64,000 bases of DNA, taken from the NCBI RefSeq assembly GCF_026210795.1, contig NC_089443.1:3286001-3350000 (forward strand), in the 5' to 3' direction. The translations under genes and the position numbers were made by a program. This document shows, one piece after another, positions 8,909 to 36,425 of the stretch. Every line of letters starts with the position of its first letter. The stretch's first letter is position 1. The notes under the pieces were generated by a model, which was not told the DNA's origin, ran no database searches, and was given only the letters and a program-made list of their open reading frames with translations. This DNA comes from Rhizophagus irregularis (Eukaryota > Glomeromycota > Glomeromycetes > Glomerales > Glomeraceae).

Positions 8909-9675
8909 ATATTTGGTGATTATAAAAAGATGTGACTATATAAAAAATTTCTTATATTAGTATATCATAATTCCGGCCAAAAATTAACATAATTTTGGCC
9001 AAAATTATACTTAAAACTTTATTGTATCATAACTCCTCCAATATTAATCGTAGAGAGATGATCTTACCGCCATTCGATTCGTCTTGATGAGATGGTTCTA
9101 ATGGTATAAAATACATCGAAATCCAATCACTAGATTAATTTCCGAAATTAAAAAAATATTAATGGTTTTTGTGTAATAACTCTGCCAATATTGATCCTAG
9201 AGAGACGATCTTACTACCATTCAATTCGTCTTGATGCGACAAATCTAATGGTATAAAATACATCGAAATCCAATCACTAGATCAATTTTTCTGAAATTAA
9301 AAAATATTAAATAGTTTTTAAGTAGTAACTCCGTCAATATTGATCACAGAGAGATGAACTTACCACCATTCGATTGGTCTTGATGAGGCGATTCCAACAA
9401 GCTATTAATCGTCTTTTTACAATCACTAGGTACCGAGATATTTAGCAAAATGTTAAATGGCGCAGTAAACGTAAATCAAGGAATATAATAATGCCGATGC
9501 TTAACATTTTGTTGAATAACCTATCAGCCAGTGATCATAAAAGGATAAAACAAAACTCTCTCCCGTTCTGCTCACTTGACAATATTTACGAAAAAATAAA
9601 AAATTTTTTCGGAGTTTTTTATTACTTTTTCTTTATAATTTCTTTATTTTAGATAACTACTACGACACTTTACAA

Positions 9676-18421: not shown

Positions 18422-20718
18422 ATCAAATCTGAATATAAATTAATATTTAACTTAATTTAAGTTAATTTGGATCAAGTAATTTATCCTTTTCAAAAAGATA
18501 GTTATTGTAAGTTAAAAATTTAATTACTATATATATTTATTACTGAATTAGATAAGAAATATTCAGAATTCTACAACTTTTTACATTCTTAAAAGTCTAC
18601 TAAATTACTATTTCAATAAAAAATAAAAATAAAATAAGTAAAATAAAAAATAAAAATAACTAACCTTTTACAACTTCTAATATTTCTAGAAGTCCTTTAA
18701 AATCACTATTTTAAAAGAAGAAAAAAATAAGAATAAAGTAAATAATAAAAGTTCATCAAAATCATTATTTTAAAAGAAACTATTTTTAAAAAAATAAAAA
18801 TAAAGTAAAAAAATAAAAAAAAAAGAAATATATTAAATTTCTATACTTTTTGTTAAGGTTGTCTGCCTAAACCTCTCCAAAATTCTACGTTTAGTTTTTC
18901 CAAAATTTTACAATAGTTTTATTATAGTTTCGGCAAGGTTTTAGCAGTTTCAGCATTTATAATAGGTTTCATCAGGTTTCACTTTTCTCTAGAATTTTGC
19001 CAACTTTTTAATAAGACTTTTATATACTGTAGTTTTAGCAAAGTTTCACCATTTCAGCATTTTGCAAAACCCCCTAGTTTTTCCAGCAACCTTACTTTTT
19101 GTATTCTTAAAAATCTAAATCTAATCCATTTTTAATAAAAATATTAATATTAATTATTTTAATTAATTATAACTCTATTGCTATATATATTTTAATAAGT
19201 TGCAATCTATTCAATGTACAAAAAGTTTTTAGAAAAATTCTGGAAATCTTCTAAAAAATACTGAAATCTGCAGTAAAATGTCCAAAATTATTTAAGATTT
19301 AAAAAATTTTACCAGATTTTTCAAAAATCTTTTGAAAAATCTGGCAAATTTTGAATAGATTTTATATATAGAATCTATTACAATTTATACTTTTTGTATT
19401 AAACATTATGATTAATATCTTTAATTCTTAAAAAAATTTAAAAAAAATAAGATTAAATAATTAAATTTGATTATTTTATTTTAATTAATTTAAGATATTT
19501 TTTTTTATTTAACTGATTTTAAGTTAATTTTTTTTCAAAAAAAAAATTTTATAATATATATTTGATTACTATTTAACTATATAAATTACCTTTTAATTAA
19601 CTCAATTAATTTATTTAATATATTAAATAAAAAATTATTGGGTCCCGTAATCACCAGACATTGAAGATAGGGCCTTTATGGCTAACATGACCCATTACTA
19701 AATGAAGTCTACCTACAGAGTCAAACGATCACTCGACAGTGCACATGTGGGGTACTACCGGTATGACGAGTGGTTTGTAGTTTAATTATATTAGAGTAGT
19801 TATTAGGAAATTTTACTTTGTATATATTTTTTTTATTTTTTTACTTTAATAAAACTGCAAATGCGCTGTGGAAAAAAAATAAAAATAAAAATAAAAAATA
19901 AAAAATTATAAAATTATTATAAATCACTAGAAGTAATTTTATTAGTATTTTAAAATTGCTTGCCTAAATAGCTAAATCTCTCCAAATTTTATGATTAGTT
20001 TTTCTAAAATTTTAATATAATTTTATTATAGTTTCAGTAAAGTTTTAGTAGTTTTAGTATTTATAATAAGTTTTATCAGAATCCTACCTACTATTAAAAT
20101 AGGTCACCCTATGGTTTAAAGTAAAGTTTACATATAAAACTTTTTAAAGATTTTATTACAGTATAAAAGAAAATTTTATGTTATATTGTTATAATTTTTT
20201 TTCTTTTTAGTTAATTAACCAATAGAATTTAAGCAAATTCCAAGATAAGATTTTATATGAAAGTAAAATTTCTATCAGTAATATAACTTAGTAAGTAATA
20301 AATGGGATCTTATTTTATTAAATTTCATTTTTTCTAGAATTTTGCTAACTTTTAATAAGACTTTTATATAGTTTTAGCAAAGTTTTGCTATTTCAGTATT
20401 TGCTAATTTGTTAAAATCCTTTAATATTTCTAGCAATTTTACTAGTATCATATAATTTTTTAATAATATACAATTTGTCATACTTTCCTTAATTTCATCT
20501 TTACTATGTATTTTAAAAAAAAATTTTAATATAAGAAATCCTATTTATTATTTTTATAATTTTAGGCAAATTTTATAATTTTACTAAAATTTTCTTTTTA
20601 AATATTTGAGTAATATTATAATCCAAAAAAGGCAATTTTTTTTTTTATCAAAAATGGAAAAATACATTATATAAAATTTTAAAAAAGGAAATTTTTATAT
20701 TATATTTATATGGTATAC
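18422..20718. repeat. AT-rich intergenic zone with two diverged copies of a repeat
   Basis: There is no credible gene. Two diverged copies of one repeat are visible at 18,865-19,090 and about 19,955-20,450. Shared phrases include CTCTCCAAAATTCTACG (and its variant), TTTATTATAGTTTC, TCTAGAATTTTGC and TTAATAAGACTTTTATATA. The second copy is split by about 245 bp (near 20,080-20,325). The remainder is A/T low complexity. Confidence 0.5.
19643..19790. other. GC-richer island in AT-rich DNA
   Basis: About 150 bases from GGGTCCCGTAATCACC to GAGTGGTTTGTAG stand out by normal base composition between AT-only flanks. I found no tRNA A/B boxes, 5S signature or open frame. A fossil of an RNA-derived SINE or of another element is possible. 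Confidence 0.3.
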
Positions 20719-20771
20719 AGACCCTTACATTAATTTACCGGATTTCATGAAATTTACTTACTAGTAATATA
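20719..20771 (+). repeat. Left terminal inverted repeat, first part
   Basis: The first ~50 bases of the giant element match the right end at 36,095-36,146 in inverted orientation with few differences. The repeat resumes after the inserted MITE (21,152 onward: CATCAGGAATTTAAACACGG against CATCTGCAAATTGAATACGG). Confidence 0.75.
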
Positions 20772-20773
20772 TA

Positions 20774-21151
20774 GTAAAATTGATGATTTTTATGCTGTAT
20801 AAAAGTTTATGAATTTTTAATAAAATTCAGCCAGAATTTTTTTTTTAAAAAGCCAATCAATTATAATTATTAAATATTAAAACAAAAAAGAAAAATTTTT
20901 AAAATATAAAAAAATTTTCTCATTGCAAAGTATAAGCAATAATTTTTCTATATGTTTTTTTCATTTTTACATATAAAATTATTTCGTCTATTACTTTACA
21001 AATAAATATTTCTTTGCATTTTAAAATAGAATATTTCTGATTACTATATTTTTAAAAACTATAATCAATTGGCTTTCAAATAAAAAAAATTTGGCCAAAT
21101 TTTATTGCGAACTCATAAATTTTTATGCAACTCAAAAATCATCAATTTTAC
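20774..21151. mobile_element. TA-duplicating MITE inside the left terminal repeat
   Basis: The 378-bp foldback element has ends GTAAAATTGATGATTTTT and the reverse complement AAAAATCATCAATTTTAC. TA is present on both sides (20,772-20,773; 21,152-21,153). The inverted repeat reaches about 90 bp with small differences. The empty site is seen at the right end of the giant element. Probable Tc1/mariner-class MITE. Confidence 0.8.
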
Positions 21152-21284
21152 TACATCAGGAATTTAAACACGGCATAATGTTCCGTAAGTTTACGGATTT
21201 TTGTAAAATTACGTACATTTACGGCATAATGTTCCGTAGATTTATGGATTTCTGTAAATCTACGTAATTTTACGATCGAAATAT

Positions 21285-22995
21285 TCTGAAATAATACGGG
21301 ATCGTAAATGTTCCGAAGTATTATGATCGAAATATTCCGAAATAATACGTGATCGTAAATTTGATCGTTACGGATTCGGAAAATATTCCGTAATAATACG
21401 TGATCGCAAATGTTTCGAAACATTACGATCGAAATATTCCATAATAATACGTGATCATAAATGTTTTGAAATATTACGATCGAAATATTCCATAATAATA
21501 CGTGATCGTAAATGTTCTGAAGCATTACGATCGAAATATTCCATAATAATACGTGATCGTAAATGTTCCGAAGCATTACGGTCAAAATATTCCATAATAA
21601 TACGTGATCGCAAATGTTTCGAAACATTACGATCGAAATATTCCGTAATAATACGTGATCGTAAATGTTTCGAAACATTACGATCGAAATATTCTGTAAT
21701 AATACGTGATCGTAAATGTTCTGAAGCATTATGATTGAAATATTCCATAATAATACGTGATCGTAAATATTCCGAAGCATTACGGTCAAAATATTCCGTA
21801 ATAATACGTGATCGCAAATGTTTCAAAACATTACGATCGAAATATTCCGTAATAATACGTGATCGTAAATGTTTCGAAACATTACGATTGAAATATTCCA
21901 TAATAATATGTGATCATAAATGTTCCGAAGCATTACGATCAAAATATTCTGTAATAATACGTGATCGTAAATGTTCCGAAGCATTACAATTGAAATATTC
22001 CGTAATAATACGTGATCGAAAATGTTCTGAAGCATTACGATCGAAATATTCCGTAATAATATGATATCGCAATTGTTCCGAAGCATTACGATCAAAATAT
22101 TCCGTAATAATACGTGATCAAAATGTTCCGAAGCATTACGATCAAAATATTCCATAATAATATGTGATCGCAAATGTTTCGAAACATTACGATCGAAATA
22201 TTCCATAATAATACATGATCGTAAATGTTTCGAAATATTACGATCAAAATATTTCGTAATAATACGTGATCATAAATGTTCCAAAGCATTACGATCGAAA
22301 TATTCCGTAATAATACGTGATCGTAAATGTTCTGAAGCATTACGATCGAAATATTCCGTAATAATACGTGATTGAAAATGTTCCGAAGCATTACAATCGA
22401 AATATTCCATAATAATATGATATCGCAATTGTTCCGAAGCATTACAATTGAAATATTCTGTAATAATACGTGATCGAAAATGTTCCGAAGCATTACGATT
22501 AAAATATTCCGTAGAATTACGATATCGCAATTGTTCGAAGCATTACGATCGAAATATTCCGTAATAATACGTGATCGTAAATGTTTCGAAGCATTACGGT
22601 CAAAATATTCCGTAATAATATGTGATCGTAAATATTAGCCCTGTTCATTTCCGGTCGGGTACATTTTTCGGTCGGATTTTGTTGTACAAAAATTATCCAA
22701 TAAAATTTTATATTTTCGATCGCAAATTGAACTGCTTTAGATTGAAATTTAGTTCAAACTCCTTGTATTTCCTGTAACTGATTTTGTTAGGATTAAAAAG
22801 GAAATTATAACTTATGTCTTTTTCTTAAATATCACGTAAACAGAAATTATCTAATTTTGGTTGGTTGTTTTTGGTATTCAAAACGGGCTAAAAGTTCAGA
22901 AAATGGTTGCGTTGTACACCGAAAAATGCAATCGACCGGAAATGAACAGGGCTATTTTGAAGCGTTACGGTCGAAATATTCTGTAATAAATTCAA
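21285..22995. repeat. 51-bp satellite array, left subterminal
   Basis: About 27 tandem units of 51 bp, each built from CGAAATATTCCGTAATAATA, CGTGATCGTAAATG and TTCCGAAGCATTACGAT with scattered changes. Because 51 is a multiple of 3, long apparent reading frames appear on both strands (a 17-residue repeat such as EYFDRNVSKHLRSRIIT). They have no independent start or codon signature and are not genes. The array is interrupted by a MITE at 22,637-22,953 and resumes briefly after it. It lies immediately inside the left terminal repeat. Confidence 0.9.
22637..22953. mobile_element. MITE inserted in the satellite array
   Basis: The 317-bp element starts AGCCCTGTTCATTTCCGGTC and ends with the inverse, GACCGGAAATGAACAGGGCT. 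A second inverted block contains CCGAAAAATG. ATT occurs on both sides (22,634-22,636; 22,954-22,956), and the 51-bp satellite resumes after it. A 3-bp duplication suits PIF/Harbinger or CACTA derivatives; the class is not resolved. Confidence 0.75.
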
Positions 22996-23253
22996 TAACT
23001 TATATTACGCTACGTAACTTATCTCATCTGGTAATTCAAGTTTCTAAAATAATCATTCTTATTTATTACAATTGTAATATTTCACATTTACACAAAATAA
23101 AGTGGCCAACTACATAATGATCAAATATATTTTACCCGAACATGTATTTATTTATTGACTTGAAAATTATCTCCTTTATTAAAATAAATGGGATATTAAA
23201 ATATATGGGGGGATATTAAAATATAAAAAATATATGCGTAGTCAATTATTATT

Positions 23254-24606
23254 TTATTTTTTATATTGTTTTTTTAATCGCCTCATTCTTTCTTTTGTCT
23301 CTTCATCCGTACTACTTATATAAATTCTTCCGCCTTCCTCCTCGTCTTCTTCTCTTATCTCGTTTTCTTCCTCTTCTTGTAATACTTCTTCTGCTTCGTC
23401 AGCTACTTCTTCTGCTTCATCAACTTCTGCTGCTTCATCAACTCCTTTGTTTGTCTCTTCAGCTTCTTGGGAAGCTTCTATTTCGTCATTATCGGAATAT
23501 GAATAATTATCCTTACTTGTAATTTTTTTCTAAGAAGTAAAACAAAATTAGTTTTTAAATATTACTATTTATTCAAATTTCTAATGCTTACCAAATTCTT
23601 CGTTAAAACGGGTTTTATGACAGATTCTGTAACCTGAATATGTAAATTTTTCGGATTTAAAATAATTTCACAAATACTTATTGCATATGCAATTTGCATA
23701 TTAGATAATTGATTTTTGCCTTTAAGTATTTGGAGGATTCTCGACATATATGTCTCCAGATCCGGATTCTTGATTTTTTTGAATAAATTACCGTAACAAT
23801 TTTTCACGGCTGGGCTCCCTTTCCATTTTCTTATTTCGCTTTCTATTAATGCCGTGTTTACGGCAGTGATTGTGGGAAGGTTAAATTCTTTAAAAACGAC
23901 ATACATTATGTCTTTCACTTTAGAAGCTAAAGAACCCCGGGCACTACGATGTTTAACTAGAAGTTAAAGAAAAGATTTTAAATTTAAATTTCAATAAATT
24001 AATGTAAAATCGTAATTTCTCAAAACTTACGGGAGAAGCAATGTTTTTTTCATAAAATATAATCCATTTATCATATCTTTTAAACCGTTTAATAAAATCA
24101 TCGTAGTTTTCATTCATATAATTATTAGTGAACTCTCAAAGTTCATCGGGGGTAGGATATATTGAAGCTTCAAGTAACTTTTTAGCAACTTCTTTGATTA
24201 TTTTCTATAATCAAGAATATAATGATTTAATGAGGAATTACTACTAAATGTTCAACCATGATTTACGTAAATATTTGTATTTTTGGGTCTTACCTTTATA
24301 TATTCTTCATCCCCTTGATTACTATCATTATTTTTATCGACTGATTCTTCTACTTAAATAATTATATCCAGTTTGGATAAAATTTTTGTATTCTGGCGCA
24401 ATATTTTCGTTAAAACTTCTTTATAACAGTAGAATATAAATAATATAAATAATAATATATTAGTAATAATTATTTTTATTTTTCAAAAATATATAATTTA
24501 ACCGACCATTAATTAATTCATCAGAAGATTCGTCGGTTTTACTCCGTTTCGTACATGCTCGACTGTTTCAGTGTTTTTTTTTTTATTATTATTATTTTTG
24601 TCCATG
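23254..24606 (-). pseudogene. Transposon accessory gene, left copy (unknown family)
   Basis: Read on the minus strand from a possible ATG at 24,606, several exons with GT-AG borders can be followed. They are a coiled-coil-like stretch (LTKILRQNTKILSKLD), a segment ending YDKWIIFYEKNIASP, a core exon with RSARGSLASKVKDIMYVVF and RKWKGSPAVKNCYGNLFKK, then IAYAISICEIILNP. A last exon encodes a long acidic tail (E/D/A) ending at 23,254. The right copy (30,789-32,926) has the same order and at least two of the same splice positions. A TAA near 24,370 and a TGA at 24,136-24,138 interrupt it, and the N-terminal exon does not join cleanly, so it is probably defective. I do not recognise the family. 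Its pairing with the transposase suggests a DNA-binding or regulatory role like CACTA TnpA, which is inference only. Confidence 0.55.
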
Positions 24607-24649
24607 ATTGAAAAAATGAAAAAAAGAGAAATTTAACGGATAGAAGAGA

Positions 24650-25400
24650 AGAAAGGAGTTTAACGGATGAATTGAGAGAGAAAAGAAAGGGGTTGGTTAA
24701 TGGATAAAGGAGAGTTTGAAGGATGCCTGTGAAACAATAGCATGAGTTTTTTTTCTGTTAGTGGACTTGCATTGCGTTGCAAAATTTTTTTTTTTTTTTG
24801 AAAGGATTTGTTAAGGGGTGTGAAAAAGAAATAGAAAAGACATGAACTTGCATATATTTCTAAAAAAAAAAAAATCTGGGAACGTTTGCAGATCAGTAGA
24901 AGAAAAAAGGTATAAAAAAAAAAAAATCTGGGAACATTTGCAAATCCAGTAGAAGAAAAAAGGCATGAAATGAAAATGAGCAAGACGCTCGAGAGACTAA
25001 ATCTGCAGACAAAAAAGATGAGGACCAAGCCTAAACGGATAGATTGAAAGGGGTTGGTTAATGGATAAAGGAGAGTTTGAAGGATGCCTGTGAAATAATA
25101 GCATGAGTTTTTTTCTGTTAGTGGACTCGCATTGCGTTGCAAATTTTTTTTTTGAAAAGGATTTTGTTAAGGGGTGTGAAAAAGAAAATAGAAAAGACAT
25201 GAACTTGCATATATTTCTAAAAAAAAAAAAAAAAATCTGGGAACATTTGCAAATCCAGTAGAAGAAAAAAGGCATGAAATGAAAAATGAGCAAGACGCTC
25301 GAGAGACTAAATCTGCAGACAAAAAAGATGAGGACCAAGCCTACAGAAGATGAACAGAAACAATGCATATTTATATATTTTATTGTTTGTAAATCTTTCT
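24650..25400. repeat. Tandem duplication, two ~365-bp units
   Basis: 24,660-25,030 and 25,040-25,345 share, in order, GGGGTTGGTTAATGGATAAA, GAGAGTTTGAAGGATGCCTG, GACTTGCATTGCGTTGC (or its variant), a long A/T run, CTGGGAACATTTGCAAATCC and CGCTCGAGAGACTAAATCTG. An extra partial CTGGGAACGTTTGC block sits in unit 1. Antisense open frames here come from poly-T runs and are not considered genes. Confidence 0.8.
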
Positions 25401-25479
25401 ATATACTGTTGTTTGTTAAAAAAAATTATTTGATCATTATGCGTAATGATCGACTACACAACAAGTTTAATTTCATGCA

Positions 25480-25850
25480 AAGCCTATATATTTCTAGATC
25501 GCAATAAATATAAGGTTTTCGTTACATTTACAACAAAGTTAATAGATAAATGACAATCTTTCATGCAAAGCCCTACAATATTTCTAGATCCGAATATTTC
25601 GCAATAAATATTCAAATTTTATAAGATTTTCGTTTACATTAAAGTTAATAGATAAATGACAATCTTTCATGCAAAGCCTACAATATTTCTAGATCCGAAA
25701 TATTTCGCAATAAATATTCAAATTTTATAAGGTTTTCGTTTACATTTACAACAAAGTAATAGATAAATGATAATCTTTCATGCAAAGCCCTACTATATTT
25801 CTAGATCTGAAATATCTCGCAATAAATATTCAGATTTTATAAAATAATAA
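25480..25850. repeat. Tandem repeat, ~110-bp unit, about four copies
   Basis: The phrases ATGCAAAGCC(C)TA, ATATTTCTAGATC, CGCAATAAATATTCAAATTT, TATAAG(A/G)TTTTCG and AATAGATAAATGACAATC recur in the same order about every 95-115 bases, with drift. It lies between the left accessory gene and the transposase gene. Confidence 0.75.
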
Positions 25851-26435
25851 GCTGTGCATGATTATAACGAAATTTTTCTAAGCTTATTAATTGATAAATA
25901 TATAGAAAAATGCTTGTGGTCTTTTGATGCACAACTATTGACCGAAAAAATGTATAACCAACCAGATCACAGTTACAATTGAGCACAATTTTTGATTGAT
26001 CGGGTTGGTTATATATCCATAATAGCTTATGTTTATTATATTTATTATAAAATTAAAATCGATCAGAAGAAAACCAATTTTTGTAGATCTGATTAACCGG
26101 CTTATGTTTCCATTAACATGATCTGATCTATAGAGTTTCAAAAATAGGATTTTAGAGATTTTGGCTTATATTAGGCGAGGCTTGTTTCAAATTTGAAATA
26201 TAGCTTCGCCCGAAACTCACTTTATGATTATCGAAATACGCCACTTTTCGTAGAAAAATTTAAAAAGAGGTAAACTTTTCACAATGATCTACGCCTGAGC
26301 TGGATCATGTTGTGGCTAATTATTTTTCGGCTAACTACACCATTATGCAAACATTTATAAATTGACATAAATGAGCAAATAATTTTTTAATTAATTTGTA
26401 AAGTTTAAATTCAAGTAAATAAAATACTCTTAAAA
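25851..26435. other. Leader region of the transposase gene
   Basis: There is no gene. An imperfect inverted repeat (TATAACCAACCAGATCA near 25,950 against TGATCGGGTTGGTTATA near 26,000) and a CTTCGCC-containing stretch near 26,200 stand out. Probable promoter/leader of the gene starting at 26,436. Confidence 0.35.
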
Positions 26436-29432
26436 ATGTCATATAAATGCCCTTTTTGTCTAAGGTACTTCAGCACAAGGTCTGCATACACTCAACATAA
26501 GAATTTTTGTACTCCGCCTAATAACGATAGTAGCGATAGTGAAGAATTAGAAGAATTTGAACATAAAACTAATAATCATGATATCGAGGTAAAGAAAATA
26601 GGAAATTATAAAATTTTTTGAATTTCTTTTTTAACATAATTAATTTTATAGATGGTCCGTGAAGATTCATGTGAAGATCTTTCTGATAATAAAAGTACAG
26701 ACTCGGAAATAAATAATCAGAGTTTTCAAAGTATGATGTCAATTTCAGAGGTTGGTGAAATTGATCAAAATATAGAAGAAATAGACCACGATGAAAATGA
26801 AAATGTCTTTGAAAATATCTTGGAAGATTCTGATTCAGAATTGAATGAAGAAGAATTCAAACCAGAAATTAATGTTAATTACCCAAGTGAAGCATATGGT
26901 GATTTAATGGCATTAGTTACGAAACATAAACTTAACAATGCGACAGAAAATGCTATAATTAAATTCTTTAATAAACATGCAAATTTAGATAAATCACTTC
27001 TTCCAAGATCTATTGAACAAGGCCGCAAATATATGGATAATATGAAACTACCAAATTTAAATTATACTAAAACTAGTATAATGAATTATAATAATAATGA
27101 GTATTTTCTTTATCATCAGTCTTTAATAAACTGTATAAAAAATATTTTGTCAATTTCGGACATATCACAAAATTTTGCGTTAACTTTTGAGAAAGTTGAG
27201 GTAATTATTTTATACTTTCGTATGAAATATACAACTTAATATTATAGGATATTTACTAATCTTCATATAAACTTAAAGCATAATGCGAAAGGAGTTTAGC
27301 GAACAAAATACTGGGAGATGCAAATAAAATGCGGAAAAATCCCCGCCACCTGGTGCCAGCAGGCTTTTATCTTTAATATTATATTCTGACGCTACAAATG
27401 TTCGACACACTATAAAAAAGTCAACTCCATCCCATTTACTTGTCTATTGGTAATATTAAAAATTGGAGGCGTAATAAGAAAGATGCAAAGCAATTATTAG
27501 CGTATCTGCCGATCTTAAAATCTAATAATATTACTGAAAGGAAGTCTGAAACATTTAAGATTGCTGTTCGCGAATGCTTCCATAAATCTTTGGAATTGTT
27601 ACTAGACCCTTTATTAAAATTAAATAAAAATGGCATTGATCTATTTTTAAATAACGAAATGATTTGGTTTTATCCTAGAGTTTCAGGCTATAATATCTGA
27701 CTGGCCGGAAGCTGCAACGTACTGTCTTACATACAAATCACCAATGTCGAAACATCCTTGTCATTTTTGTCTAGTCACAAGAGACAATCTTGCTGATCTT
27801 AATTTACAAATTGATGATATAACACCACGAACTCATGTTAATATGCAGCAGTATTTTAATCAAAACTCGGGAAATTCTGTTTGCATTGAAAATATATCTA
27901 ATTTTTTTTGGAATCTGCCGTAAGTTTACATAATATTTGTTAGGCATCCAGCCATTTCGCCAAATCACGTAAGCATTACAAGCATTACACTAACATGAGT
28001 TTATTTTTATTAATTTATATTAAGTAATATAAATATCTATCAAGCCACAGTGCCTGATAGAATGCATCATCTCGATTTAGGCCTCTTTCATTATCAAATC
28101 GATTATACGAAAAAACTTTTAGGGGCGCAATGTGGCAAAACTTTAGTTGATGAAGTAAATCATCGATTAGCCGCAATACCAAGATTTTCCGGTTTGAAGA
28201 TCTTTACAAATGGCATACAATCAATATCCAGATTAACAGCTAATGAGTATCGCAATCTAATGAAAGTAATGGTTTTTGTAGTGGACAATTTGTTTGTAAA
28301 TAATGAGGATGATGAAAATTTTGTAAAGAATGAAGATCTGGCAAAACTTTACAAAGCTTGGAATGAAATGTATGCAATTAGTCGATATGAAAATTTCAAA
28401 GAAAGTGATTTGGCCAAATTTAGGGTATGTACTACATAATTATTATAAAACAACGCTGTCCACTAATACTTAAAATTATAATTTCAGGAATCTATAAACA
28501 ATTGGTCTCAAATGTTCATAAAAATTCTCCAATGTATGTTCCCCTCGGAGTTAAAATTACCAAAACTGCATTTGTGGGCATATCATATAATTGATTCGAT
28601 TTGATCATTTGGTGCAGTTAATGGATACACTACGGAGACTTACGAAAGCCTTCACAAAGAATACGTTAAGAATCCCTACCGATTAAGTAATAAAAAAAAT
28701 ATTGAAGTTCAAATAATGAAAATAGCAAGTATTATTTATATAAAATACACAATACTATGTTAAATTTCTAAAAAAAATTAATTTTTATAGATTCGGCGAC
28801 AATCAATAACAAATATAACCCATCGATTACCAAATTCAGCTACTATCCCTCGTATATTTAAATTTACAGCAATACTTTTCAAATTTCTATTAAAAGATGC
28901 CCATGATTTTTTTGTAGAACAGGCTAATATAGACCACAAAATGAGATCTGGATTTGACAATTTTTTGGAATGTTTAAATCTGTATATGGATCACGAAAGT
29001 ATTGCAAATGAAAGCTACAAGTGACAATATACAGATCAGTTATAATAGAAAATGGTGCAATAATGCGTCTTACTAACAGTTATTATGGCGAGCCTTGGTA
29101 TAGTAATGTGTCTGTTCGTATGAATTCTGATGAATTATTTGATTACGCTTCTGATCAAGGCATTTGTTACGGGCAGGTAATTTTTTAATTGATTTGATAC
29201 TACATATTTATATAATATTGCTAATTTAAAAATGATTTTTTAAATTAAGGTTTTATTAATAGCGAAAATAGAACTTAAGAATCAAAATATTCCATTAAAT
29301 CTCGCATTAATTCAGTGGTATGACTTCAAATTTCAAAATCAACCACATCTTTATGGGTGTCCCTTACTAGAAATTACGGAAATCTATAACTTTATTCGAT
29401 ATAGAAGCAATACAAATATATCGTACATATAG
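26436..29432 (+). pseudogene. Plavaka/CACTA-like transposase with N-terminal C2H2 finger, decayed
   Basis: Exon 1 (26,436-26,588) encodes a C2H2 finger, CPFCLRYFSTRSAYTQHKNFC. A 63-nt intron leads to an acidic exon 2 (26,652-27,200) ending in YLYHQSLINC-type helices typical of fungal Plavaka proteins. The third part (27,248-27,900) is frameshifted with several stops, but IGNIKNWRRNKKDAKQ and KHPCHFCLV are readable. After an intron comes MPDRMHHLDLGLFHYQ and GLKIFTNGIQSISRLTANEY (to 28,421), the clearest family signature. Later exons carry LHLWAYHIIDSI, GYTTETYESLHKEYVKNPYR and ITNITHRLP, with TGA stops at 28,602-28,604 and 29,022-29,024. The reading ends at TAG 29,430. The family would catalyse cut-and-paste transposition at the element's ends; this copy is dead as written. 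Confidence 0.75.
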
Positions 29433-29559
29433 TATCCGGTTTAATAAAACAAATGAATATTTTGTAAATAAATACATATTTTAATAAAGTTTATTATATT
29501 TAACGACAGCGATACTAATATCTTGTATAACGTTACTGATCTAAAATATGACTATTACT

Positions 29560-30780
29560 TTTCCTTTTTTGATAAGGTAAGTTTTATGGATTTCCGTAAA
29601 GTTACGGTTGAATGCGTAAATTGTTCCATTTTTATTGGTTAGACTGTTCATGTCTGATCGGTTACACCAACTAATAAATTCGTGATCAAAAAATGCTGAT
29701 CAAACAACCCCTGACTAATATATAATGAGTTGGAATTTTATTTCACTCAGGAGTGGTATCATTAGATTTTTTATAATGTGTATGCATGCTTATGTTTTCA
29801 AAATTATATAAATTTTTTATCGTACAAAGAAAAACTTTAATGTTTATTGTTTCCATGTAAGATACGACTGACATAATTATTACTACTAAGTATGCAAAGG
29901 TTTCTGCAGTTCCTGCGAATTCTACTTTAATGACTTGTACGAAAAATTGCTTAGTTTAGTATAATGAGTAAGTATCGAAATAAAGCGAATTTCTATCCAT
30001 AATAATAAAACATGTTCACGTGTTTATGTTTTATTTCCATATATGATATAACAATGATATAATTATTAAATATTCGAAGGTTCAAGGTTCCTGCGGATTC
30101 TACTTTAATGACTTGTCAAAAAATTGCTTGGTTTAGTATAATGAGTAAGTATCGAAATCATGCGGTTCTATCCATAATAATAACAAGGAAAAAACTCATG
30201 TTCACGCGTAATTATTTATTTCCATATAAAGTGATATAATTATTGAATATTCGAAGGTTTTACTGCGTTACTGCTTTAATGACTGGTAGCCTGGTTTAGA
30301 ATAATGAGTAAGTAATCGAAATTATCGCTATGTTCGCGTGCGTGTTTTTATTTCCTCAACTGACATAATTATTACTAAGAAAGTTTTTTTGCTTGGTTTA
30401 GAATAATGAGTAATTATGCGAATTGTACGAAAAAATTTCCTGGTTTAGAATAATGAGTAATTATGCGAATTGTACGAAAAAATTTCCTGGTTTAGAATAA
30501 TGAGTAATTATGCAATTTATCTTTATGTTCACGCGCATTTGTTTTTATTTCCTTGACTGACATAATTATTACTAAGAAAGTTTCTGCGGTTCTGCTTAAT
30601 GACTGGTACGAAAATTTGCATGATGTAATTATTGAGTATTCGAAAGTTTCTGTTAATGACTGGTACGAAAAATTGCTTGATTTGGTTTAAAGAGTTTTTT
30701 TTTTTCATAAATAATGGTCAATTTTTTTTCTTCAGAAATATTTTTTTTTCTTAAATTGTAAGAAATCCCATTTTTCAAAA
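29560..30780. repeat. Degenerate repeats between transposase and right accessory gene
   Basis: The phrase TTGCTTGGTTTAGAATAATG followed by AGTAATTATGCGAA and GTACGAAAAA recurs at least seven times. At 30,421-30,515 two copies repeat exactly with a 47-bp period. Other recurring words are TTTCTGCGGTTCTGC, AATGACTGG and ACATAATTATTACTAAG. No gene is present. Confidence 0.7.
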
Positions 30781-30788
30781 GTATCATT

Positions 30789-32926
30789 ATGGAATCAGGA
30801 AATAAATTGAGAGAATCCTCTCGTAAGAAAATTGAGGAATTGCTAATCGGGGAATCACAAGCGCAGTGATAGAAGCTGAAGCCGAAGCAGAAACAACAAC
30901 AGTAAAACCAACATCAACACCAGCGAAACCATCAATGACGAAGTTAACGTTCTTCAGACTAAGAGATGGCTTCTTGTAAATTCAAAAATTGAAGGTATTC
31001 GCAAATATTTAAGAAATTAATAAAATTATCTTGTAATTAATATTTATTGTAATTATGGTACAGTCAACTCCCTCTATAGTCACTCCCGTTATAGTCACAT
31101 TCTACTATATAGTCACACCAGTTGAATGTTCAAAACACTTTATTATTAAAATCTATCCTATATAGTCACAATCTATCTATAGTCACTATCACACCTATCC
31201 TCAAAAATCTTATATTAAAAAGAACTGTTTATAATCACAGTTATATAAAGAATATATTAAATAACTTGGCATCTAATAATCGTACAAAGATGTATCATAG
31301 CTTGTTAGAATCGTCTCACTGAGACGAATCGAATGGTGGTAGTTTTATCCTTTTCCGATCACTGGCTGACGAGTTATTCAACAAAATGTTAAACATCGGC
31401 ATTATAATATTTCTTGATTTACGTTTACTGCGCCATTTAACATTTTGCTAAATTTCTCGGTACCTAGTGATTGTAAAAAGACGATTTATAGCTCGTTGGA
31501 ATCGCCTCATCGAGACGAATCGAATGGTGGTAAGCTCATCTCTCTGTGATCAATATTGACGGAGTTATTACTTAAAAACCATTTAATATTTTTTAATTTC
31601 GGAAATTGATCTAGTGATTGGATTTCGATGTATCTTATACCATTAGATTCGTCTCATCAAGACGAATCGAATGGTAGTAAGATCGTCTTTCTAGGATCAA
31701 TATTGACAGAGTTATTACACAAAAACCATTAATATTTTTTAATTTCGGAAATTAATCTAGTGATTGGATTTCGACGTATTTCATACCATTAGAACCGTCT
31801 CATCAAGACGAATCGAATGGCGGTAAGATCATCTCTCTACGATTAATATTGGCGAAGTTACGATACAATAAATTTTTAAGTATAATTCTGGCTAAAATTA
31901 TGTTAATTTTTGGCCGGAATTATGATATACAAATATAAGAAATTTTTTATATAGTCACATCTCTTTATAATCACCAAATATGGACTGTCCCAAATGTGTG
32001 ACTATAAAGAGAGTTGACTGTAGATCGATTAACAAAGATTGAAAATAAAATCAATACTTTAAGTAAAGAAATACACGAGTTTAAATCCGAATTAAAAAAT
32101 TTACTTTCTGATAAAATAAATTTGTCATCAAGCGTTAAAGAATCATTCATAGTGGTAGGAATATCTTTGAAATATTTAATTTTATTATTTATTTACGTTC
32201 TAATTATTTTGATTGAAGGATATTTAGTACTGAACCATGAGAGTTTTTTCTCTAATTTTACTGAAGACGATTGGATCACGTATTACAACGAGAATATACA
32301 TAAACAAGTAAGTCCTTATTCGATAACAAAATGTTTAATAAAATAAAATAAAATATTAAGTATTAACTTTCTTTGTAAAGTTAACAAAACAAGTACGGTC
32401 CGTAAGAGGAACATTGTCCTCGAAATCAAGGGAGGCTATTTTTTCTATATTCGGATCCTGTTTACCACCTATAAACACAAATGCCAGGCCGTCTGAAGTA
32501 GCAAAGTGGGAGAGAAAACCCGAAGTTAAAGATTGTTTTGAAGGCCTGTTCAAAAAAATGAATCCTAAGGACAAAAATTCTTCGATTGTTTTAGCAAGCG
32601 TTATTGACAGAAGTCCTCCAAAATGACCATTCTAATGCAGCTTGCATATGTTCTTGTGATCTGCTCAACAATTTTAAACCCAAATCATGACGAAATAAGG
32701 TGTAAAAAGAATATCATGAAACAAAAAGTTAAAAAATTTTTAGTAAGTTTGTAATTTTGTAGTAGCATTTAATAAAATATCATTTCGCTGGCTAATCATA
32801 TTATTCTTTAAAGAAAAAAATAACAAAAATAGTCAACGGGGTATAAGATATTCCGATTTTGAAGATAATAGCTATGAGGAAGAAGAAAGCGGAAATGAAA
32901 CTGAAGATGAAGATGATGATGTATAA
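30789..32926 (+). pseudogene. Transposon accessory gene, right copy, split by a MITE
   Basis: ATG at 30,789 opens MESGNKLRESSRKKIEEL and soon meets TGA. The next part is cut by the pogo-like MITE (31,061-32,020). After it come LTKIENKINTLSKEIHEF, a segment ending DDWITYYNENIHKQ at a splice donor, RGTLSSKSREAIFSIFG with KWERKPEVKDCFEGLFKK, then, after a frameshift, MQLAYVLVICSTILNP and KKFL at another donor. The final exon gives an acidic tail ending at TAA 32,924-32,926. Order, splice donors and residues parallel the left copy (23,254-24,606), which points the other way. A hydrophobic stretch (YLILLFIYVLIILI) is present here but was not seen in the left copy. Confidence 0.55.
31061..32020 (+). 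mobile_element. Pogo/Tigger-like MITE, intact 960-bp copy
   Basis: The ends CAGTCAACTCCCTCTATAGTC and, reversed, CAGTCAACTCTCTTTATAGTC sit between TA dinucleotides (31,059-31,060; 32,021-32,022). The interior contains four spaced near-palindromes of the type GATTCGTCTCATCAAGACGA (about 31,310, 31,500, 31,645 and 31,795). It is the sister of the split copy at 7,092-17,714. It inserted inside the right accessory gene. Confidence 0.88.
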
Positions 32927-33559
32927 TAAGGTGAATTTTATTGTATGCGTAAGATATTTTTTTATTGGTGTGGCGAGGACTGGTGAATTTTATGTTTTTG
33001 CGATTAATTTGTATATAAAATTTATTAATTTGAGTTTTTCTCATTTGGCTGATAACTGTTAAACAAATAAAAGAATTTTTATCCATGAAACACAAAATTA
33101 TTTTGAATTTGATCGCACAAAATTTATCAATTTTGTTAAAATTCATTTTTTTGTTCCTCTTTTGCAATATTTGGAAAGTTAAATTTATTTCTATCAAGTC
33201 TGATGCCGAGTACCGACCATAAGAAATTATAAATTTGTGAAAAGTGTTACAAATTAACCTCTAGTTATTTGTTATATTATTTATATAGTATATATTATCA
33301 ACACGTCATGCATATTTCTCTTAATTTTATATTTATCACGCAAGAATTTTTTTTTAATAGTCGAGGCAGAATTAATTTAGACTCTACCAAAATCATATAA
33401 TTTGACTCACAGATTACGAATTAATTTTATAAATCTAGTAAATTTGATAAATTAACCTATTATGGCATATACATATGTTCTACGCGATCATCTAAAAATA
33501 GCTAAACACGAATTAAATAAATAAACTTAATATTCTCTATACGCTCTATTTTGCAAGGA

Positions 33560-35095
33560 CCGCTCATTGTACATTTGCGTAGCAGAAGACTAGCAGAAGT
33601 ATCATGGAAAGTATTTATATATATTCATAGGCTTTATGAATATTTATAATATTAATAAATTATACGTGAAAAAGCTTTGCAACAGCTGCTGGAAAAATGA
33701 ACGCGTACTTTCAATATAGTAGAAGTATGGAAGTTATTTATATTTCATAATTTCATTAATATTCGTAGGTTTACGACTATTTCATAATATTAATAATTGT
33801 TCATGGAAAGTTTTGCGTACAATATAATGGTAAAGGTATGGAAAGTATTTATACTCCATAATTTAACTATTTTATACAATATTAATAATTATAACTGTTG
33901 GTCTAACTTTTGAACTTATAAAGTAAAAATAAAATTAACGCGTGCTCTCAATGTAGTAGTGTAGAAGGAATGGAAGGTATTTGTACTTTGTAATTTCGTT
34001 AATGTGTTTACGTCTTTTTTATAAAAAATATTAATAATCACGCATAATGAACTGTTGGTTTAACTTTTTGAACTTGTAGAAATAAAGTTAACGCGTGCTC
34101 TCAACGTAATAGTGTAAAAGAGATGGAAGGTATGTATTCCTTAATTTTGTTAATGTTCGTAGGTTTACGACTTTTTAATAATAATCACAACTGTTGGTCC
34201 AACTTTTTGAACTTGTAATTGTTTGTTTGACGTAGTAGTGTAGAAGGAATGGAAGGTATGTACTTCACGATTTCGTTAATGTTCGTATGTTTACGTCTTT
34301 TTTATAAAAAATATTAATAATCACGCATATTGAAACTGTTAGTTTAACTTTTGAACTTATAGAAATAAAGTTAACGCGTGCTCTTAACGTAATAGTGTAG
34401 AAGGGATAGAAGGTATGTATTCCTTAATTTCGTTAATGTTCGTATGTTTACGACTTTTTAATAATAATCACAACTGTTTGGTCCAACTTTTTGAACTTGT
34501 AATGTTTGTTTGATGTAGAGATGAATTTAACGCTCTCAACGTAGTAGTGTAGAAGGAATGGAAGGTATGTATTTCACGATTTCGTTAATGTTCGTATGTT
34601 TACGTCTTTTTTATAAAAAATATTAATAATCACGCATATTGAAACTGTTGGTTTAACCTTTTGAACTTGTAGAAATAAAGTTAACGCGTGCTCCTAACGT
34701 AATAGTGTAGAAGGGATGGAAGGTATGTATTCCTTAATTTCGTTAATGTTCGTATGTTTACGACTTTTTAATAATAATCGCAACTGTTTGGTCCAACTTT
34801 TTGAACTTGTAATGTTTGTTTGATGTAGAGATGAATTTAACGCATGTTTTCAACGTAATAGTGTAGAAGAGAGTGGAAGGTATGTACCTCACAATTTCGT
34901 TAATGTTCGTAAGTTTACTTTTTTTTTTATAAAAAATATTAATAATCACGCATAATGATAACTGTTGGTCTAATTTTTGATCTTGTAATATTCGTTGATG
35001 CAGAAATGAATTTAACGCATGCTATCAACGTAGCAGTGTAAAAGGACTGAAGGTATGTACTTCATAATTTCGTTAATGTTCGTATGACTTTATTA
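33560..35095. repeat. Higher-order tandem array, right side of giant element
   Basis: The half-unit (~150 bp) contains AACTGTTGGTTTAACTTTTT, GAACTTGTA, TTAACGCGTGCTCTCAACGT, AGTGTAGAAGGAATGGAAGG and TTCGTTAATGTTCGTATG. Two alternating half-unit types give a higher-order period of about 310 bp (for example GTAGTAGTGTAGAAGGAATG at 34,229 and again about 313 bp later). Near the left edge the copies become short and diverged. Confidence 0.85.
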
Positions 35096-35479
35096 CAATT
35101 ATGTTTATAGGTTAAGTTTTAATAACAATTTGTTTTTACAACACATCCTTTTGATATTAACAAATAATGTTATCCAAATGACTTTTATTTTATAATATCA
35201 GATATAGCAAAATATTAATCACAGATGAAATAGAAGTGAAGTTGAAAAATAAAAAGTCAAAGAACGAAAGTCAAATAAATGAAGATGAGCGACAAATAAG
35301 ATTAAAAAAATTCTATTGACGAGATTGAACGCAATATTATGATAGTTTTAAATACAAATTATTTATTGTAGCTATATTTTGAATAAAAATACAAAAATTA
35401 CATAAATTTATAAAATATTACGTGTAAGTTACAGTGAAAAATGTTATTTTGTAATTACGTATATTAATCACTTGAATTT

Positions 35480-36094
35480 GTGAAAAAAGTTCGCGAAATA
35501 ATAATATTTTGGAAAAGTTTCGAAATATTGTACCGTAAACTGCGAAATTCGCGATGTAAAATTACGAAATGTTATACTTTCGGAAAAGTTTCGAAATATT
35601 ATACCGTAAACCTACGAAATTACGCGATGTAAAATTATGAAATATTATACCGCGAAAAGTTTTGAAATATTATACCGTAAACCCTACGAAATCTTATGAC
35701 GTAAAATTACGAAATATTACATTTTCAAAAAGTTTCGAAATATTACACAAAATAAATATATGAAAATCCTACGACGTAAAATTACGAAATATTACACTTT
35801 AGTTTCGAAATATTGCATGCTTCTGAAAATCCCAACGTAAAATTATGAAATATTACACTTTCGAAAAGTTTCGAAATATTGCACCGTAAATCTAAGAAAT
35901 TCTACGATGTAAAATTTACATACATGGCAATATTACACTGTAATTCTATGAAATATTATGCGTAAACTTACGAAATATTGCGTTGAAATTACGAAATATT
36001 ACTGTTGCGTAATTTTTTGAAGGTCATGTAAATTTACGGAGTATTTCGCAGGCGTAAATTTTCATAATATTACGCCGTATTCAATTTGCAGATG
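35480..36094. repeat. Right subterminal tandem array (~65-75 bp unit)
   Basis: Variants of CGAAATATTATACCGTAAAC, CTACGAAATTACG, GATGTAAAATTACGAAAT and ACTTTCGAAAAGTTT recur about eight times directly inside the right terminal repeat. The word CGAAATATT is shared with the 51-bp array next to the left end, as expected for subterminal protein-binding sites of one element. Confidence 0.8.
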
Positions 36095-36146
36095 TATATA
36101 TTACCAAGTAAATTTCATGAAATCCAGTAAATTAATGTAGGGGTCT
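36095..36146 (-). repeat. Right terminal inverted repeat of the giant element
   Basis: Read on the minus strand: AGACCCCTACATTAATTTAC, TGGATTTCATGAAATTTACT, then TGGTAATATATACATC. It matches the left end base by base apart from a handful of changes. The same similarity continues inward to CGGCGTAAT. Confidence 0.75.
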
Positions 36147-36425
36147 ATATAAACTTAATATCAATAAAGCATATATAAATCATTAAAAAAAAAAAAATTA
36201 TTTTTATTTTAAAAATTTTTAAAATTATTAAATAATATTGTTAAATATACTGTATTTATATTATATTTGTTATATTCTAAATCTAAGAAAATTTGGTAAA
36301 ATTTAGTAATTGATTTTTGATATTTATTTATATTTTATTATTATTACTTAAAAAAGTAAAATTTTTTTTTGATTTTTTAATAAAAATTTATTATAGTTTT
36401 AATAGAATCCTAAATATTTATAATA

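Follow-up and report, generated by a model that had tools for sequence, protein, structure and literature searches.

PlavakaB elements of fungi encode a Plavaka transposase, have CATCA..TGATG ends and are flanked by duplications of 2–3 bp (Kojima 2025; PMC12730594). Rhizophagus irregularis is rich in Plavaka elements, which were absent from public repeat databases when last surveyed (PMC11075540), and its transposable elements are generally highly CG-methylated (PMC8647823). Here, a stretch of 64,000 nucleotides from this fungus (NC_089443.1, positions 3,286,001 to 3,350,000; hereafter the window) was analysed. It contains a Plavaka element of 14,941 bp at 21154–36094, which carries an accessory gene A, a defective transposase gene, an accessory gene B homologous to A and tandem arrays close to both ends, and which is inserted in a miniature inverted-repeat transposable element (MITE). 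The element and its relatives share with fungal PlavakaB the Plavaka transposase, the CATC..GATG ends and the 2-bp duplications (PMC12730594). PlavakaB is described with TET/JBP cargo (PMC12730594), whereas A and B genes, arrays of B genes, CpG-dense tandem arrays, a right end reading CATCTG and lengths of 15–32 kb are found here.

Several other systems resemble this one in part. In the "Plavaka giant repeats" of Amoebidium, repetitive genes form highly methylated tandem clusters of up to 50 kb beside a Plavaka transposase (PMC11244446), so that neither size nor gene arrays are novel in themselves. The clustered genes there have few introns, and many of them code for tyrosine recombinases (PMC11244446), whereas here one intron-bearing family stands in fixed order and the ends and duplications are defined. 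Large En/Spm elements of 16–20 kb with 4–5 open reading frames are reported from Chondrus crispus (Kojima 2013 as cited in PMC6431247). Plant En/Spm and the CACTA element Tgmt* are likewise large (Tgmt* 20.5 kb) and combine subterminal repeats with a transposase and a second DNA-binding protein; in En/Spm this protein, TnpA, acts on the subterminal repeats and is needed for transposition (PMC2613891). They differ in having CACTA ends and a 3-bp duplication, and in Tgmt* a mosaic transcript of the transposase gene supplies the second protein (PMC2613891). A and B, in contrast, are separate genes, and the likeness to En/Spm considered here is one of layout. VANDAL elements form a Mutator-like group and are not Plavaka. 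They too join a non-transposase protein, VANC, with non-coding tandem arrays in a methylating host, and the anti-silencing by VANC acts through these arrays (PMC10398659). Within a partial coverage of the literature, no description was found in print of the A-transposase-B plan, of ordered B classes and of CpG-dense arrays as seen here. The A and B genes are also not described in the portions covered of the Plavaka literature (PMC12730594, PMC11075540, PMC9674265, PMC8290104 and PMC11244446).

The gene block of the window is enclosed by a 53-nt inverted pair of 89% complementarity (arms 20714–20766 and 36099–36151). The initial annotation had correctly recognized these 50-bp inverted repeats and had taken them for the ends of a 15.4-kb element at 20719–36146. 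The window's own genome (146.7 Mb, 32 contigs) was searched with the left and the right 60 bp, giving 21 matches for the left and 13 for the right. Besides the window, they pair at six sites with spans of 420–479 bp, and the remaining matches are single. The repeats thus recur as independent short repeats, the ends of short MITEs, and the element ends and the length first proposed are refuted. Both ends of six large copies and an entire seventh copy were then compared with the window (alignments of at least 60 bp; matches wholly within 21170–22640 omitted). Homology begins at 21145–21153 in six of the seven copies and at 21136 in the seventh. On the right it stops at 36094–36102 in all seven, inside the claimed span. 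Aligned by eye, the common ends lie at 21154 and 36094, with single-base changes in some copies. Since homology with the seven copies ends at these common CATC termini, the element extends from 21154 to 36094. Its inverted ends are imperfect, the left reading CATCAG... and the right CATCTG.... The element, its ends and its target are as follows.

21154–36094, plus strand: whole Plavaka element, 14,941 bp (homology end with 7 copies; 13 oriented end pairs)
21154–21196, plus strand: left inverted end, CATCAGGAATTTAAACACGG... (alignment with copies, genome search)
36052–36094, minus strand: right inverted end, CATCTGCAAATTGAATACGG... (alignment with copies, genome search)
21152–21153, no strand: TA target duplication, left copy (joined flanks minus one TA align across the junction with MITE copies)
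36095–36096, no strand: TA target duplication, right copy (same joined-flank alignment)
20714–21153, no strand: target MITE (~480 bp), left part, with inverted end and 109-nt inverted interior (six paired copies of 420–479 bp; alignment)
36095–36151, no strand: target MITE (~480 bp), right part, with the other inverted end (inverted pair, MITE alignment)

The empty site was looked for by joining the window flanks, removing one TA and aligning the product with 14 MITE loci, of which 11 aligned (L023, L027 and L029 scored too low). The joined flanks cross the junction gap-free in 8 of these 11 copies; the stretch is missing from L020 and L024, and L021 contains five additional bases there. Because these eight copies are continuous across the junction, the flanking DNA on both sides represents one MITE of ~480 bp, the target of the insertion. 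The short target duplication that the initial annotation had proposed to look for is therefore present as TA on both sides, with an empty site in related MITE copies. The 109-nt arms, first read as a MITE nested within the terminal repeat, are the interior of the target MITE and no later insertion. We give practically no credence to an element of 20719–36146 with the 50-bp repeats as terminal inverted repeats. The two repeats are indeed inverted and enclose the gene block, but they delimit a ~480-bp MITE that is present elsewhere and through which the joined flanks are continuous; homology with other copies stops within that span, and the other 12 end pairs described below are without any match to the 50-bp repeats. 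What stands of the proposal of a single element is that the gene block belongs to one Plavaka-type element, as the 13 pairs and the empty site indicate; the span does not. The locus is a cautionary case: persuasive inverted ends enclosing a gene block may be those of the target and not of the element.

The ~480-bp MITE family (L016–L021 and the window parts) has inverted ends of ~50 bp and a 109-nt inverted interior, and comprises six paired copies and diverged singles. Copy L016 has identical 9 bases on either side; a clear duplication was not seen in the other copies.

The true ends were found at 19 distinct left and 20 right places in the genome. They form 13 correctly oriented pairs of 14.9–31.8 kb, among which the window copy is the shortest. 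The pairs are given with their lengths and, where the B genes were classed (a–d, see below), with their B content.

C15 (window): 14,941 bp; d alone
C7 at 3.69 Mb (C7a): 23,816 bp; abcd
C7 at 4.11 Mb (C7b): 17,161 bp; cd
C1: 19,291 bp; bcd
C32: 20,686 bp; acd
C18: 20,423 bp; bcd
C14: 22,754 bp; abcd
C5: 23,333 bp; b, c and a third assigned by position
C27: 21,734 bp; ad
C2 at 0.88 Mb: 23,927 bp
C2 at 5.11 Mb (5111256–5128870): 17,615 bp
C6: 23,702 bp
C7 at 5.20 Mb: 31,797 bp

Duplications of 2 bp flank 12 of the 13 pairs (TA in 7, TT in 3, GA in 1 and AA in 1). The gene order in 12 of the 13 pairs is A on the minus strand, the Plavaka transposase and then 1–4 homologous B genes; these gene matches rest on the candidates that were scored (150 of 258, 215 and 246 in the three gene searches). 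Further copies with the same gene order, a check suggested by the initial annotation, thus exist, and the size and the extra accessory genes that had looked unusual are the rule within the family (14.9–31.8 kb, 1–4 B genes). As eight copies differ by only 0.7–2.7% in the gene A region, the family is young. With ends, duplications and gene plan defined, it can now be annotated and its insertions dated.

A chance assembly of unrelated repeats was considered as well and is ruled out by the 13 oriented pairs, 12 of them with identical gene order. The C2 copy at 5.11 Mb shows both ends and a B match only, with no A or transposase match among the candidates scored. This stretch of 17.6 kb (C2:5111256–5128870) may be a large non-autonomous derivative.

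The three genes of the window copy are located as follows.

23254–24605, minus strand: accessory gene A, exon limits approximate, defective (coiled-coil-like stretch, basic core, acidic tail)
26436–29429, plus strand: Plavaka transposase gene, limits approximate, defective (Pfam match; comparison with copy C7b)
30789–32926, plus strand: accessory gene B, class d, interrupted and frameshifted (homologous to A; tree of B cores)

The Plavaka-like nature of the transposase gene was confirmed. Its exon at 27416–27700 matches the Pfam Plavaka domain PF18759 with 52.7 bits (E 4.9e-14, cut-off 26.3), and the corresponding exon of C7b scores 99.5 bits. The first transposase exon of C7b resembles a C2H2 finger, below the Pfam cut-offs. 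The termini correspond to CATCA..TGATG, although the right end, CATCTG, departs at the fifth base, and the target duplication is 2 bp in 12 of the 13 pairs, within the 2–3 bp of PlavakaB. Judged by termini and target duplication, the element would be a PlavakaB. CACTA/EnSpm elements in the strict sense have CACTA or CAC..GTG ends and a 3-bp duplication; here, the true ends are CATC..GATG and the duplication is 2 bp, and the CACTA label given initially has to be dropped. A VANDAL-type transposase was not found, the transposase being Plavaka. Compared with C7b, gene A of the window has lost 33 bp, with an in-frame stop; the transposase region contains several stops and several insertions or deletions that are not multiples of three, and gene B carries insertions, deletions and frameshifts in addition to a nested insertion of 961 bp. 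On its sequence, the window copy is defective and dead.

A and B are homologous genes in opposite orientation (A minus, B plus), as the initial annotation had stated, with cores that are 37% identical in a two-sequence alignment. The net charge of the A and B cores is +10 to +13 in the window's genome and +11 and +6 in a soil contig described below; the tail of A has a net charge of −20. Coiled-coil-like stretches were read by eye in both. When viral contigs were scanned for A and B relatives, 39 pattern matches came up and none was confirmed. In a tree of 24 sequences from nine elements, the B cores fall into four classes, a–d, with local supports of 0.86–0.99; the third B copy of C5 was left out owing to an alignment gap. 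Along the element, the classes always follow one another as a-b-c-d, with different members missing and 1–4 copies per element. The simplest reading is a single ancestral four-gene array that was thinned through deletion.

By simple counts over eight copies, the ratio of nonsynonymous to synonymous differences per site (pN/pS) of the A exon is 0.27. Within the B classes it is 0.18 for c, 0.55 for d and 1.28 for b, and undefined for a, where no synonymous change was seen. Divergence between the B classes is highest in two coding stretches, reaching 0.22. One noncoding stretch upstream of B reaches 0.15, and the introns mostly stay below 0.03, with up to 0.07 against class d. Since synonymous divergence in the variable exon is raised as well, gene conversion explains the B divergence as well as diversifying selection does, and selection on B is ambiguous.

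Subterminal arrays lie next to both ends.

21170–22633, plus strand: left subterminal array, ~29 units of 51 bp (2.1 copies at 21170–21274, 26.8 copies at 21270–22633)
35494–36001, no strand: right subterminal array, 71-bp units (at 35494–35916), 73–74 bp in other copies (tandem-repeat search)

Nowhere else in the element is CpG as dense as in these arrays. The ratio of observed to expected CpG is 3.47 on the left (21154–22635) and 3.31 on the right (35490–36094), and 0.88 and 0.94 in the flanks. Among the eight copies examined, the repeat number of the left array ranges from 10.8 to 36.8, and its subterminal place is constant. The left array contains 15 copies of the word CGAAATATT and the right array 9 (shuffle means 0.1 and 0.06); arrays at both ends that share a word had been noted initially, and to this extent the observation stands. 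In the left arrays of eight copies, transitions were found at 13.2% of CpG sites and at 4.3% of other sites, and they make up 302 of 319 changes at CpG sites and 327 of 568 elsewhere; the array limits used in this count are approximate, and about half of the C1 stretch aligned. This pattern matches what deamination of methylated CpG would leave.

The plan of A beside a transposase extends beyond this family. A set of 112 A-type matches was picked by hand (from 150 scored rows, 38 B rows and 4 second fragments were removed, and 4 rows from the B-gene search were added), and scored transposase rows, less one split fragment, served as possible neighbours. Among the matches scored, 92 of the 112 have a transposase within 15 kb, at a median distance of 3.7 kb, and 90 are divergent from it. 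Random placement on equal contigs of 4.6 Mb gave a mean of 0.73 divergent neighbours and a maximum of 4. Many of the A-type matches come from another family (family 2), which is more abundant and has a transposase of about 70% identity. A family 2 element on C5 is 11.4 kb long, with CATCAGG at both ends and GA on either side; a 50-bp array of its own lies at the end that is downstream of the transposase. This is the family 2 element examined in full, and no B gene was detected in it. A scan of prokaryote genomes yielded one contig out of 29 pattern matches, VBAQ01000091.1 (L060 / L062), labelled as a Bacteroidetes bin from soil. It encodes A on the minus strand, a transposase exon (69% identical) on the plus strand and B on the plus strand, in exon-like frames, and its start lies within an array (6.4 units of 50 bp) that has an observed/expected CpG ratio of 3.26. 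It is probably a misbinned eukaryotic contig that contaminates the prokaryote collection. The soil B groups with B (ultrafast bootstrap 100) and the soil A falls on the A side (support for its exact place 61), so that the duplication giving A and B predates the split of these elements.

Consensus units of the left and right arrays of the window's family (family 1), of family 2 and of the soil contig were compared against 300 shuffles each, with family 2 and soil represented by one element each. None of the 300 shuffles reached the match between family 1 left and soil, between family 2 and soil or between family 1 right and family 2; two reached that between family 1 left and family 2, and one that between family 1 right and soil. 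The units are thus related across the two families and the soil organism. Their recurring core approximates the palindrome CGAAATATTTCG.

A more B-like protein, with a 148-aa frame, was also seen in five copies of equal score, at C7:89217, C1:1548175, C1:3383218, C4:4923096 and C21:1278165. They have no transposase within 15 kb among the scored matches and possibly represent another recent family with a B relative.

The explanation that we hold to be probable, if only modestly so, is a defective PlavakaB-type element inserted in a MITE, whose A and B proteins would bind the subterminal arrays in a role like that of TnpA. In a functional element, the Plavaka transposase would cut at the CATC ends, and A and B would act like TnpA in maize En/Spm, by drawing the two ends together or by regulating the element. 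The coiled coil and the near-palindromic core prompt the guess that they bind as dimers, and cytosine methylation of the CpG-rich arrays would block their binding. A number of results weigh against this explanation. In the window, the unit of the left array does not significantly resemble that of the right (their match is reached by 25 of 300 shuffles), and apart from CGAAATATT the two arrays have 25 distinct 9-mers in common, compared with a shuffle mean of 28. The shared word noted initially is therefore weakened as evidence for one common site, and a single protein binding both arrays lacks support. The exact palindrome CGAAATATTTCG is present in 0 of the 4 consensus units. The array of C14 is without an excess of CpG transitions (8.2% vs 8.7%), and that of C7a has a small one (6.8% vs 4.0%). 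Neither Pfam scans of A and B, with only matches below the cut-offs (best E 0.18 for a B core and 0.027 for a piece of coiled coil), nor a PDB sequence search (best E 0.46) revealed a DNA-binding domain in A or B, and two structure models built from 2 and 3 sequences reached a mean predicted local distance difference test score (pLDDT) of 43.3 and 42.5, too low for use. By simple counts, pN/pS between the B classes is 0.44–0.93, indicating little constraint. Finally, 6 left and 7 right end matches are unpaired, and C18 is without a matching duplication. Some of the unpaired ends adjoin A, transposase or B matches and may be truncated copies.

A possible, although rather unlikely, alternative is that A and B are anti-silencing factors, which would bind the CpG-dense arrays and remove methylation from the element like VANC of Arabidopsis VANDAL, with several B paralogues broadening or diversifying the targeting. 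The arrays are the CpG-densest parts and decay through CpG transitions as methylated DNA would, in a genome whose transposable elements are generally highly CG-methylated (PMC8647823). An array together with a dedicated non-transposase gene is the VANC layout (PMC10398659), and the divergence of the B classes peaks in two short coding stretches. The raised synonymous divergence and the noncoding stretch at 0.15, however, point to gene conversion at least equally, and the targets of VANC diverge fast (PMC10398659), whereas the array unit described here is recognisable between organisms. The identical layout is accounted for by a TnpA-like role, which on our analysis seems more likely, a VANC-like role being possible; the two are compatible and not mutually exclusive. 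An extended version, which we consider unlikely, is a self-targeting system in which an ancient A and amplified B helpers would recognise the conserved near-palindromic ~50-bp arrays and undo host methylation; the B array would serve as a specificity bank, and the system would have evolved independently of VANC and of the TET/JBP cargo. Distinctly unlikely is a reading in which A and B would be passengers, or genes directed at the host such as repressors or silencing decoys, that play no part at the arrays, these being only by-products of recombination. The variable number of B copies, several of them damaged, the weak constraint between B classes and the fully examined family 2 element with A and no detectable B would fit such genes. 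A, however, is constrained (pN/pS 0.27), 90 of 112 A-type matches have the transposase as a divergent neighbour, the A-transposase-B plan recurs in another organism, where B groups with B, and the arrays keep their subterminal place in the eight copies examined. If, as in the TnpA-like or the VANC-like reading, A and B do recognise the CpG-dense arrays, the family would be a compact system for studying how transposons escape silencing in a methylating symbiotic fungus.

The window copy holds the following further features.

22636–22954, no strand: nested 319-bp MITE with 37-nt inverted ends (inverted-repeat search; found in other copies)
25509–25842, no strand: three 106-bp repeats between the divergent A and transposase (tandem-repeat search)
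29909–30517, no strand: 177-bp and 47-bp repeats upstream of B (matching DNA upstream of both C7b B genes)
31060–32020, no strand: 961-bp mariner-like insertion within gene B (inverted ends read by eye)
33867–35100, no strand: 157/310-bp higher-order array near the right end, its repeats running from about 33951 to 34987 (tandem-repeat search)

The 319-bp MITE is present at full length in six of the seven other copies and in part in C5; because other copies share it, it travels with the element. An imperfect direct duplication of ~300 bp lies between A and the transposase (24685–25343) and is seen in other copies too. The 961-bp insertion is absent in the 5 other copies with fetched DNA across the site, and no match to it was found in other copies. 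It contains a 146-bp satellite, the reverse complement of which forms the array at 9029–9394 of the window. Pieces of the same mariner-like insertion type flank the ~480-bp MITE in L018 and lie beside it in L017.

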